Assembly: GCF_001676785.2 (NCBI RefSeq)
Contig: NZ_CP015910.2
Coordinates: 2,046,001 to 2,110,000 of the forward strand
Length of the DNA: 64,000 nucleotides
From: Brachyspira hyodysenteriae ATCC 27164
GTDB taxonomy: Bacteria; Spirochaetota; Brachyspiria; Brachyspirales; Brachyspiraceae
Reading direction: 5' to 3'
Shown here: positions 24,638-28,758 of the stretch, piece by piece
How positions within the stretch are numbered: the first letter of the stretch is position 1
How the letters are laid out: every line of letters starts with the position of its first letter
Position numbers and translations under genes: made by a program
The notes under the pieces: model-generated
What the model saw: only the letters and a program-made list of their open reading frames with translations
The model's database searches: none
What the model was told of the DNA's origin: nothing

Positions 24638-24907
24638 TTATTTATGCACCATATATTCTGCACTCACAACAGCATGTTCTTTGCATTTGGGACATTTTGG
24701 AGATAATTTTTTTAAAATTTTCTGTATAAAAGATTCTTTTTTAGAATCAATTTTTACTATTATATTTCCATTTTCATCTTTTTCTGCTTCTTTAGAATCT
24801 AAAGAAATAAAAGAAAGTTCTGAAGGAACATTTAATTTCTTATCAGTAGTAAAAAAATATCCGCAATTTCTGCATCTGTAATGAAAAGGAGGTTTATCTT
24901 CAAACAT
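24638..24907 (-). CDS. Small zinc-ribbon protein
   Basis: 89 residues with CRNCGY near the N-terminus (Cys12, Cys15) and CPKCKEH near the C-terminus (two more Cys), a split four-cysteine zinc ribbon around a charged linker. I do not recognise the family. It sits between the phosphoesterase (27 bases upstream) and the YibQ-like gene (59 bases downstream), so it is probably part of the same transcript. Confidence 0.7.
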   Translation of the reverse strand: MFEDKPPFHYRCRNCGYFFTTDKKLNVPSELSFISLDSKEAEKDENGNIIVKIDSKKESFIQKILKKLSPKCPKCKEHAVVSAEYMVHK

Positions 24908-24934: not shown

Positions 24935-25630
24935 TTATATATCTAATACCAATAATTTATCCTGCTCTGTATCAAAATGATCTGCCATATAAATAGCATA
25001 ACTATCTTTTTTTATAACACTTCCTTGTTTTACTCTATTATGCCCCACAACTTGATTATATCCTATCCATGCATCTTCCGATAAATCCATGGCATCAGCC
25101 CATAATATACCGGCAAACTTACTTCTTCCTCCCCTCCTAAATGAAGCTATATTGCAGTCATCTTTATCATTATTATAAACTATATTTACAATATCATAAA
25201 TATTATCAATATTAATATCTTTTAAATCGTATTTCTGCTTTATATATTCAATCCAACCATTTGTAATTCCGGCATGAGTAAATATATAATTATTTTCCAT
25301 ATGTATTGTTTTAAAAATATCAGAATTATCATTAAATATTTCATGCATTTCTTTAGCATAAGTTTTTCTGTATCTGCTTGCTGTAGGATACCCCACTATA
25401 TACTGAAAATCATGATTGCCTATAAGAAGAATAACTTTATCATCATGATTCTTTTTAAACTCTATTACATCTTTTAAATTATTAATTATCTGCTCATCAG
25501 TAAAAGTAACCCAGCTGTCATCACTATAATCTCCCATAAAAATCACTCTATCAAACTTATCAAACCTTCCTTCAATAAGTTTTTTCCAGCAGCTTTTTCC
25601 ATGTAAATCACCTATAACAGCAGTTTTCAT
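24935..25630 (-). CDS. Calcineurin-like metallophosphoesterase (PPP-like)
   Basis: 231 residues with the complete two-metal site: Asp8 and His10 in GDLHG, Asp34 in MGDYSD, Asn72-His73 in GNHDF, His119 in FTHAG and His197 in VVGHNR. The order GDxHG, GDxxD, GNHD, THAG is that of bacterial PPP-type phosphatases, which act on phosphoproteins or small phosphoesters. Its ATG overlaps the stop of the upstream HPr-like gene by one base (TAATG), so the two are translationally coupled and probably work together. Confidence 0.88.
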   Translation of the reverse strand: MKTAVIGDLHGKSCWKKLIEGRFDKFDRVIFMGDYSDDSWVTFTDEQIINNLKDVIEFKKNHDDKVILLIGNHDFQYIVGYPTASRYRKTYAKEMHEIFNDNSDIFKTIHMENNYIFTHAGITNGWIEYIKQKYDLKDINIDNIYDIVNIVYNNDKDDCNIASFRRGGRSKFAGILWADAMDLSEDAWIGYNQVVGHNRVKQGSVIKKDSYAIYMADHFDTEQDKLLVLDI

Positions 25631-26799
25631 TAAAGTCTCCTTACCATTATATTTATATGCTGATAATCAATAACAGAATCTTCAGAATCCTTTTCAAGAA
25701 CTTTATTAATATAAATAGTTTCAAATTTATTCTGTAAATATTCTTTAAACTCTCTTATTGTTTCCCAATATTCTTCATTATTATGAGAAGTATTAATTTT
25801 ATTTTTATGTTCAAAGTTATCTTTTATTTTATATGCTATATTATCAATAATCTTCTCTTCTATCTCATAAATTTTACCTATATTCTGAACTATATTTATT
25901 GTTCTATAAAGATCCAAACTAAAATTAGATGTATTTGAAATCATATATATATTTATAGAATAATCCGAAGATTTTCTCTTGTCTTCTAATATAAAATCCA
26001 AAGTTTTAATGGATTCGTCTATAAAATTCCTATTAGTTTCTATATCATACTGAACATTTAAAGGCTCTATACCTATAATTTTCTTTATAAATAGTGAATC
26101 AAATTGATTATAAAAATATTTTTTCACATTATTAAAGAATAAATGTATATAAAAATATTTCATTTCTCTGTCTTTTACAATATCTATCAACTTGTATAAG
26201 AAATTGCTTAAATCATTTTCATTTATATTTACTTCATAATGAGAGGATAACTTTCTTATAACATCTGATATATTATTATTAATAACATCAACAATTTCTG
26301 TTTTATCATCATTTTTTACATATATAATATTATTATCCAAATTTAAAGAAGGTAAATGAAGAGAATCTCTTTTTTCTTTCAATATTTTTATTTTATTTTC
26401 TATATCTTCTTTTATAATATCTTTTTTATCATTAGGGGTTAAAAATAATATTTCTTCTTCTATATATTTATTACCTTCTGATTCCTGCTCTTTTTCCAGC
26501 TCTTCTATTTTTTCTAAAGTATAAAATTCCTTTTTCTCCAATACCTCTTCTATTCTTTTTAAGTTATTTTCTCTATCAGCACCATAAACATATAATGTAA
26601 ATTTATATCCGTATTTTATATCAAGCCCCATCATCTTTATAAAAGATTTGGCATTAACCCTCTTTCCATTCTTGTTCTCTATCTCTATTTTATCCTCAAT
26701 AGTCCTAAAAAAATCAACAATGGAATTAACTGTTTTATTATCGCTTACAATAGAATTTCTACATTCAAACTCTTTGGATATAAAATCATTATTTTCCAT
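25630..26799 (-). CDS. Protein with an HPr-like domain lacking the active-site His, plus a ~300-residue unknown region
   Basis: 389 residues. Residues 6-90 follow the PTS protein HPr across its length: the segment GKRVNAKSFIKMMGLDIKYG lines up with HPr NGKxVNxKSIMGVMSLGIxxG, then YGADRENNLKRIEEVLE. By this alignment the HPr catalytic His15 falls at Ser19 and Arg17 at Asn21, so phosphotransfer is not expected, whereas the regulatory Ser46 is kept as Ser52. Residues about 95-389 are charged, mostly helical-looking and unlike anything I recognise. It is first in the run and coupled to a phosphoesterase. The HPr-like assignment is by eye. Confidence 0.65.
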   Translation of the reverse strand: MENNDFISKEFECRNSIVSDNKTVNSIVDFFRTIEDKIEIENKNGKRVNAKSFIKMMGLDIKYGYKFTLYVYGADRENNLKRIEEVLEKKEFYTLEKIEELEKEQESEGNKYIEEEILFLTPNDKKDIIKEDIENKIKILKEKRDSLHLPSLNLDNNIIYVKNDDKTEIVDVINNNISDVIRKLSSHYEVNINENDLSNFLYKLIDIVKDREMKYFYIHLFFNNVKKYFYNQFDSLFIKKIIGIEPLNVQYDIETNRNFIDESIKTLDFILEDKRKSSDYSINIYMISNTSNFSLDLYRTINIVQNIGKIYEIEEKIIDNIAYKIKDNFEHKNKINTSHNNEEYWETIREFKEYLQNKFETIYINKVLEKDSEDSVIDYQHINIMVRRL

Positions 26800-27174: not shown

Positions 27175-28758
27175 ATGATTGATTTTAATTTAAAAGATAT
27201 TAGAGAAAAAATTTTGAAACTAACACAAAGCCAATTTGCTAAAATGTTAGGCGTGCGTCAAGATTATATTTCTAGATTGGAACGAAATGCTAATAATATA
27301 ACTCTTGACTTATTGGATAAGCTTGCAGAAAATACTGGACTTACTATTGATGAACTTACAAAGTATAAAAAGAATTCTTTTGAAAGTGAAAATCCATATC
27401 TTTATGAGAATCTTATTAATGTACAAGTCATCATAGATAAAATTAATGAAGAAATAAGTACAGTAGATAAAAAGAATAATGAAAAAATATCAGAAATAAC
27501 GGCTGATGTTTACAATAAAATTAGCGATACTTTTGATATTGTGGTTTATGGAAGATATAGTTCTGGAAAAACTTCATTTATAAATGCAATATTCGATAAA
27601 AATATAGATACAAATCCTTATTCTGAAGAAACCAGCAATGATGAATATTATTTGAATGATGATTCCAAACTATTTAGAATAATTGAATATAAAGAAAATC
27701 TTCTTGATACTAGAAAGTACAATAATCAAAATATGTTTATATATTTATGTGATATAAATGCTTTTTCTCAGGAAGATATTACTAATATAAATGCTTTAGC
27801 AAATTTTATAGATGATTTCAGCAATATATCTATAATATTCTCAAAAGCTAATATTTTTGATGAAAACGAATTAGACAGTGTTATTGATAAAAAATTCGAA
27901 ATATTAAAAAACTTTATAGAATCTTCAAACAATATTAAAAAGATAGATTATAGCCTATTGAGAAAGAGATTCTTCCCATTTTCGATAAATAATAATAATC
28001 TAGTTAAGCAGATAAAAGATGATTTTGCTGAAAATATAAAATATGCTTACTATAATAGAATATTAACAAATATTAATTTTATTACAGAAATAATAGATAA
28101 TAAAAATAACTTCCAAGAAAATGATAAATTAGAAGTTAATTTAAATAAAATAAAAATATCAGTTAAAGAAACATTTAATGAAATTTATAAAAATACTCTT
28201 AATATAGACAGCATAATTCAATCAATTGATAATAATAATGTATACAGAAAAAAAGATGATATAAAGGTATTATGCAACAGTATAAATTCTAATTTAGATA
28301 CACAATTATATAATATACTTGCTATTACAAAAGAAGATTTTGATATTAAAGAACCAAATAAAATAAAAACAAATTTGATAAATCTTTCTATAGGTATTAT
28401 ACCTTCATTCAATTTATTAAAAAACAGCACAATGAAAATAATAAATATAGTAGGAGTATCTTTATCATTCCTTCCTAGTGTTGTATTTATATTATCAGGG
28501 TTTATGTCTTTTTCTGGAAATTGGAAAAAAACACTTTCTAAAAAAGTTATTAAAGCTTATGAAGAAGAAAATGTGGTATCTAAATATAATAAAACAATAG
28601 ATGAATATTTCAATAATTACTTGGCTAATTTAAAAGAAACAGATACTAAAACTAAAGAACTTCTTCAATATCAAGAAGATGCAAAAATATACAAAAATAT
28701 AAAATCTATATTACTTAATTTTTCATCTTATATAGAAACAGAAAAAAATAAAAAATAA
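27175..28758 (+). CDS. XRE-type HTH fused to a dynamin-like GTPase
   Basis: 527 residues. Residues 5-65 are a Cro/C1-type helix-turn-helix (SQFAKMLGVRQDYISRLERN). A coiled-coil-like stretch (80-118) leads to a P-loop, GRYSSGKTS at 126-134, followed by FINAIF, as in dynamin-like/Era-like GTPases. G3 (DxxG) is not recognisable and G4 is degenerate (SKAN, 223-226), so GTP binding is likely but hydrolysis uncertain. Two hydrophobic stretches near 400-450 could insert in a membrane, then a helical tail follows. No adjacent partner dynamin. I do not know a characterised homologue with this layout. Confidence 0.75.
   Translation: MIDFNLKDIREKILKLTQSQFAKMLGVRQDYISRLERNANNITLDLLDKLAENTGLTIDELTKYKKNSFESENPYLYENLINVQVIIDKINEEISTVDKKNNEKISEITADVYNKISDTFDIVVYGRYSSGKTSFINAIFDKNIDTNPYSEETSNDEYYLNDDSKLFRIIEYKENLLDTRKYNNQNMFIYLCDINAFSQEDITNINALANFIDDFSNISIIFSKANIFDENELDSVIDKKFEILKNFIESSNNIKKIDYSLLRKRFFPFSINNNNLVKQIKDDFAENIKYAYYNRILTNINFITEIIDNKNNFQENDKLEVNLNKIKISVKETFNEIYKNTLNIDSIIQSIDNNNVYRKKDDIKVLCNSINSNLDTQLYNILAITKEDFDIKEPNKIKTNLINLSIGIIPSFNLLKNSTMKIINIVGVSLSFLPSVVFILSGFMSFSGNWKKTLSKKVIKAYEEENVVSKYNKTIDEYFNNYLANLKETDTKTKELLQYQEDAKIYKNIKSILLNFSSYIETEKNKK

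Follow-up and report, generated by a model that had tools for sequence, protein, structure and literature searches.

An HPr domain without the catalytic histidine joined to two helical modules in Brachyspira: probably a regulator rather than a phosphocarrier

HPr proteins without the catalytic histidine are known mainly through Crh of Bacillus, which has Gln15 at position 15. Crh retains the HPr fold and the Ser46 position, and its organism encodes both HprK and a separate catalytic HPr. A gene of Brachyspira hyodysenteriae ATCC 27164 resembles it in the fold, in the kept Ser46 position and in this genomic setting. Its product, the HPr-fusion protein, is fixed across one part of Brachyspira, a genus that comprises pathogens and commensals of the gut, and in it a dead HPr domain is joined to the apparent non-catalytic part of a GTPase family of poorly known function. 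The literature search found nothing on a Brachyspira HPr of this kind, nor on the function of the DUF697 GTPases. Overall, the fusion protein probably has a regulatory role instead of carrying phosphate.

The locus and the distribution of its genes

The window is a stretch of 64,000 nucleotides of contig NZ_CP015910.2 (positions 2,046,001 to 2,110,000), and the features discussed here are collected in Table 1. The stop codon of the HPr fusion and the start codon of the phosphoesterase have one base in common (TAATG), an overlap already read correctly in the initial annotation. The zinc-ribbon gene is followed by genes for a polysaccharide deacetylase-like and then a diaminopimelate-decarboxylase-like protein, the latter label being read from the sequence, with gaps of 59 and 32 bases. 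The XRE-GTPase gene (27175-28758) lies upstream of the HPr fusion in divergent orientation; an XRE-type HTH on a dynamin-like GTPase is an unusual pairing. In a promoter and terminator scan, promoter-like sites were no commoner than in shuffled sequences.

Table 1. Positions in the window of the HPr-fusion gene, its parts and the neighbouring genes
Feature	Position	Strand	Description and basis
HPr-fusion protein, 389 aa	25630..26799	(-)	Carrier-dead HPr domain (6-93), linker helix, two tandem helical modules (about 126-262, 263-389); PF00381, model pLDDT 86
HPr domain, residues 6-93	26521..26784	(-)	Asp20 at the His15 position, Lys22 at the Arg17 position, Ser52 at the Ser46 position; structural superposition, alignment with the genome's five HPr domains, dN/dS
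Helical module 1 (about residues 126-262)	26014..26424	(-)	Profile match to module 2; similarity to GTPase L103:8036-9547 behind its G domain
Helical module 2 (about residues 263-389)	25633..26013	(-)	Profile comparisons; helix order in the model as in module 1
Calcineurin-like, ApaH/PPP-like phosphoesterase, 231 aa	24935..25630	(-)	PF00149 E 3.1e-11; 25/26 genomes
Small zinc-ribbon-like 89-aa protein (two CxxC pairs), third in the run	24638..24907	(-)	Zinc-ribbon matches weak, below cut-off
XRE-type HTH and dynamin-like GTPase with hydrophobic C-terminal segment, 527 aa	27175..28758	(+)	HTH_3 E 5.2e-13, MMR_HSR1 E 2.6e-4; divergent neighbour, association uncertain

In a scan of the genome collection, the HPr fusion is found in Brachyspira only, where it is present in 18 of the 26 genomes. 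The phosphoesterase is present in 25 of the 26, seven of which are among the eight that lack the HPr fusion. The survey of the pair that the initial annotation had proposed finds the two genes adjacent wherever the HPr fusion occurs (18/18), with a spacing of 20 bases or less outside the window. The pair thus withstands the refutation named there, homologues whose genes never lie side by side. This linkage is not special, because the order of the downstream genes is equally conserved in the genomes examined. In a tree of the canonical HPr region, the eight genomes without the HPr fusion fall on one side of a fully supported branch, and the 18/8 pattern of presence is a single gain or loss, not eighteen events.

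The zinc-ribbon protein is found in the same 18 genomes, with one further marginal match (G003, E 5.6e-4), and so is the XRE-GTPase, which is unlinked to the HPr fusion in three of them (G007, G009 and G015). Since the 18/8 split corresponds to one branch, the co-occurrence of the HPr fusion, the zinc ribbon and the XRE-GTPase is not independent evidence of association. The zinc-ribbon protein had been proposed as a third member of a module; it does share the distribution of the HPr fusion, but this sharing reflects one phylogenetic event. The HPr fusion is intact in all 17 readable genomes. The apparent gene breakage in G015 is an assembly artefact, due to stretches of N within the HPr-fusion gene and also within the XRE-GTPase gene (L101:7466-7905, L102).

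Searches of plasmids and of viral contigs found no relatives of the locus in either collection, and a plasmid or viral origin was rejected on this ground. A part in anti-phage defence was also rejected; PADLOC gives no match for the HPr fusion or the phosphoesterase, and only partial, mostly weak LeoA/LeoBC matches for the GTPases.

The HPr domain and the helical modules

Residues 9-88 of the HPr fusion match PF00381 (E 1.1e-9, 38.6 bits against a cut-off of 23), as do all 20 family members, orthologues and paralogues together, and phmmer with the fusion retrieves HPr and Crh from the PDB. An AlphaFold2 model built from 20 aligned homologues (mean pLDDT 86) superposes on E. faecalis HPr (1ptf) with Z 15.2 over 86 residues at 1.4 A, and its top structural matches are all HPr. 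The likeness to HPr proposed for residues 6-90 is borne out by this match and by the predicted fold. As a PTS phosphocarrier HPr, the domain falls short of the cut-off of NCBIfam TIGR01003 (30.7 of 47.9 bits).

The catalytic histidine is absent from position 15, as the initial annotation said, but its register through the active-site loop was off by one. The alignment with the genome's own HPr, which is ungapped through this loop, pairs H-A-R with D20-N21-K22, and the structural alignment to Crh begins at model residue 20, corresponding to Crh residue 15. Position 15 is therefore occupied by Asp20 rather than Ser, and position 17 by Lys22 rather than Asn. The surrounding G-L-H-x-R-P motif is also absent; Gly13, Leu14 and Pro18 are gone. 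Since His15 and its motif are lost, a carrier role by the usual PTS chemistry is excluded, unless Asp20 takes over. Ser52, on the other hand, was placed correctly at HPr Ser46. It is invariant, and N49-A50-K51-S52 is unchanged throughout the 20 members, even in tandem paralogues that are only 39-41 percent identical. His15 replaced by Asp20 and Ser46 kept as Ser52 is the combination expected of a Crh-like domain.

The dN/dS ratio is 0.02-0.08 in the HPr domain, 0.11-0.21 in the rest of the protein and 0.12-0.16 over the whole gene, so that constraint within the fusion protein is strongest in its HPr domain. A dead domain that is more constrained than the rest still does something, and its strong constraint argues for a maintained interaction surface.

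The genome encodes five HPr domains: the canonical HPr, two other single-domain HPrs, a DhaM-type fusion and the HPr fusion under study. It also encodes three EI N-terminal domains and one HprK (PF07475, E 1.9e-64). The initial annotation had asked whether hprK is present; the gene is found in 25 of the 26 Brachyspira genomes, the sole absence being from an incomplete one. Because HprK is encoded, phosphorylation of Ser52 is possible. Its invariance alone does not show phosphorylation, since Ser is retained at position 46 in four of the five HPr domains of the genome. Elsewhere in this genome (L009:58-1761), a free-standing HPr shows the reverse of the HPr fusion, with HAR present and Lys in place of Ser46, and lies directly behind a 474-residue gene resembling a PTS-type transcriptional regulator. 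The closest HPrs to the domain of the fusion are the canonical Brachyspira HPrs (E 1e-14 to 4e-17), those of other spirochaetes matching at 1.6e-10 or weaker, which suggests that the domain arose by duplication of ptsH within the lineage.

The region behind the HPr domain, all helical in the model, had been described as an unknown 300-residue region. It is not featureless, but a tandem pair of helical modules. A profile comparison of residues 95-262 with residues 255-389 scores 32.1, against 12.9 +/- 2.4 for column shuffles (maximum 21.9; 0 of 200 as high) and 17.8 for a reversed control. The helices of the two halves pair one to one in the model (133-145/267-285, 167-187/293-310, 194-210/315-330, 218-241/341-368 and 253-263/379-388).

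These modules resemble part of two GTPases encoded at the corresponding locus of another Brachyspira genome (L103 of G018). The two GTPases, gtp1 and gtp2, are 58 percent identical over 354 residues, and DUF697 is matched by one of them (E 3.2e-7). In blastp searches of a small set, the sequences that follow their G domains match the modules at E 1e-4 to 4e-5. Pairwise shuffles of gtp2 residues 205-310 with ten members of the HPr-fusion family give p from 1.2e-6 to 1.3e-2, although one of 33 control proteins also reaches 1.2e-4. In profile comparisons gtp2 scores 28.4 and 25.1 with the modules, and gtp1 scores 28.2 with module 2, against control maxima of 21.4 and 19.5 (77 segments), whereas module 1 with gtp1 alone scores 19.1, under the control maximum of 21.4. 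Similarity beyond controls is therefore found only with the L103 pair, a DUF697 GTPase and its close paralogue, behind their G domains. The Pfam DUF697 model (PF05128) matches none of the 20 members at E up to 10, a profile comparison with a wider DUF697 set gives no significant score, and the C-terminus of another Brachyspira GTPase, G001_B, does not match the modules in the same kind of comparison. Kinship of the modules with the post-G-domain region of a DUF697 (YcjF-like) GTPase is statistically supported and likely, but not proven, and the HPr domain appears to sit where the G domain would.

Against the PDB, the best scores of the C-terminal model (Foldseek E 1.3; VIA, Z 5.6) are within the range of unrelated helical bundles, as are those with the MxA stalk (Z 4.7-5.3). 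No known fold is assigned to the C-terminal part for this reason, and the lack of a PDB match does not show that its fold is new. In a sample of 393 genomes of the phylum, no relatives of the C-terminal part were found outside Brachyspira, and only HPr domains were matched there. An EI-like C-terminus, an idea taken from fusions such as DhaM, is without Pfam support, and KaiB matches in a PDB profile search are at chance level.

The phosphoesterase and the neighbouring GTPases

The phosphoesterase belongs to the superfamily of PF00149 (E 3.1e-11, 44.5 bits against a cut-off of 21.5). The PPP signature (GDxHG, GDxVDRG, GNHE) is incomplete: GDLHG is present, and GDYSDDSW and GNHD replace the other two motifs. 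The nearest solved relative is ApaH (2dfj, 9ojd), with a weak E of 0.017. The earlier label of a PPP-type phosphoesterase thus holds for the calcineurin-like family and the GDxHG motif, but not for the full set of PPP motifs. GDLHG, GDYSDD, GNHD, HAG and GHNR are conserved in all 17 aligned genomes, six of which are without the HPr fusion. Since seven genomes without the HPr fusion retain the phosphoesterase, with the same motifs in the six aligned, it has another job besides the HPr fusion.

In one genome without the HPr fusion in which the upstream genes are kept (G001), two GTPases and a 139-residue protein are encoded ahead of the phosphoesterase. In view of this arrangement, it is no less plausible that the phosphoesterase is connected with GTPases than with Ser52. 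The 139-residue protein in this upstream slot (L090:2155-5836) is of no known family.

The gene order in G018 is HPr paralogue, GTPase, GTPase, HPr fusion, phosphoesterase and zinc ribbon. Here the two GTPases separate the HPr fusion from its tandem paralogue (L103:5403-9547), and G002 and G020 have the paralogue without GTPases. The same genome carries a run of four further GTPase genes elsewhere (L151:6100-11792), two of them with two G domains per chain, with no HPr gene nearby. DUF697 GTPases are missing from most genomes with the HPr fusion, and a GTPase partner of the DUF697 type cannot therefore be general.

Possible roles and likeness to known systems

The reading preferred here, at a probability of roughly 0.4, is that the HPr fusion may be a regulatory adaptor and not a phosphocarrier, Crh-like and regulated by HprK, with the HPr domain and the C-terminal modules as its docking and partner-binding parts. 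A Crh-like role is favoured because His15 is lost, Ser46 is kept and HprK is present. A duplicated HPr of the genus would have lost His15 and the surrounding motif and would then have been joined to two helical modules. Like Crh in Bacillus, its HPr domain would most likely be a docking head whose binding is regulated. A PTS protein other than HprK might also read or modify this head. HprK would phosphorylate Ser52 when energy is plentiful, altering what the HPr fusion binds, and the helical modules would bind a partner, plausibly a DUF697 or dynamin-like GTPase. Domain kinship and gene order make GTPases the first candidates. We only infer the phosphorylation of Ser52, the GTPase partner and the direction of the effect. 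The initial annotation also proposed a signalling module rather than a PTS carrier; this agrees with the loss of the usual carrier chemistry and with purifying selection, but its assignment of the phosphoesterase as a dedicated eraser is not supported, as discussed below.

The conservation of Ser52 has another explanation: Ser46 caps the N-terminus of an HPr helix and is frequent also in organisms that lack HprK, such as E. coli. The domain might then be a plain protein-interaction domain that is never phosphorylated and binds a PTS partner (EI, EII) or an unrelated protein constitutively, Ser52 being kept as a helix cap. The prevalence of Ser at position 46 in the HPr domains of the genome, whatever their role, fits such a function, and no partner kinase is linked to the gene. 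The tandem paralogues, which have a four-residue deletion in the active-site loop, still keep N-A-K-S and the fold signature. This explanation is nevertheless somewhat unlikely, given that all four residues from N49 to S52 are invariant even in these divergent paralogues and that hprK is lacking from one incomplete genome only.

The adaptor reading can be extended by supposing that the HPr domain replaced the G domain of a DUF697-type GTPase, which would give a nucleotide-independent subunit whose assembly with GTPases is switched by the energy state of the PTS and HprK. This extension is unlikely as matters stand.

Asp20 might instead be a permanent mimic of phospho-histidine, or accept phosphate from EI, which the genome encodes, so that the domain would report or intercept PTS flux. 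All 17 full-length orthologues have Asp20 and Lys22, whereas the residue at Ser19 differs among them (S, D, T, E, K, Q), as does residue 21. Crystal structures of E. coli HPr with H15D show a folded HPr, and 1cm2, 1cm3 and 3ccd are among the structural matches of the model. However, the deletion in the paralogues falls in this very loop, the residues that flank His15 in HPr are gone, and the invariance of Asp could be structural, which makes such a role distinctly improbable.

The switch at Ser52 with the neighbouring phosphoesterase as its dedicated eraser, as first proposed, draws on the unbroken adjacency of the two genes, their overlap by one base in the window and close spacing elsewhere, and the conservation of both. 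This is quite improbable in view of the retention of the phosphoesterase where the HPr fusion is absent. Its linkage is one of local synteny, shared by the genes downstream, and its nearest solved relative, ApaH, is a dinucleotide polyphosphate hydrolase. Besides, HprK is bifunctional in known cases, so that no extra eraser is needed. A degenerating relic of a horizontally acquired GTPase island with no current role would suit the confinement to one part of the genus and the coming and going of neighbouring GTPases, but is very improbable for a gene that is under purifying selection, above all in its HPr domain, and is interrupted only by the run of N in G015.

If the kinship of the modules is true, the HPr fusion offers a concrete way to find out which partners DUF697 modules bind and what is regulated by HprK in spirochaetes. 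If the G domain has indeed been replaced, it would provide a direct link between sugar-transport signalling and GTPases of the dynamin/DUF697 type.

Crh is free-standing and has 85 residues, whereas the HPr fusion has Asp at position 15 and about 290 residues of helical modules. The canonical Brachyspira HPr (L006:1477-1758, beside EI) is the closest HPr by sequence, at about 43-45 percent identity over the matched part, but has T-G-L-H-A-R-P in a single domain and is linked to ptsI. In DUF697/YcjF-like GTPases (e.g. L103:6638-7741, PF05128), the helical C-terminal region appears akin to each module of the fusion. These GTPases have an N-terminal G domain and hydrophobic segments, whereas the fusion has HPr at that place, two modules and no membrane-type segment (maximum Kyte-Doolittle value 0.59, versus 1.86 and 2.40 for the GTPases). 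ApaH, the symmetrical Ap4A hydrolase, has the GDxHG, GNHD and HAGIT motifs in common with the phosphoesterase, which is 50 residues shorter and is without the ARG/DRG part of motif 2.
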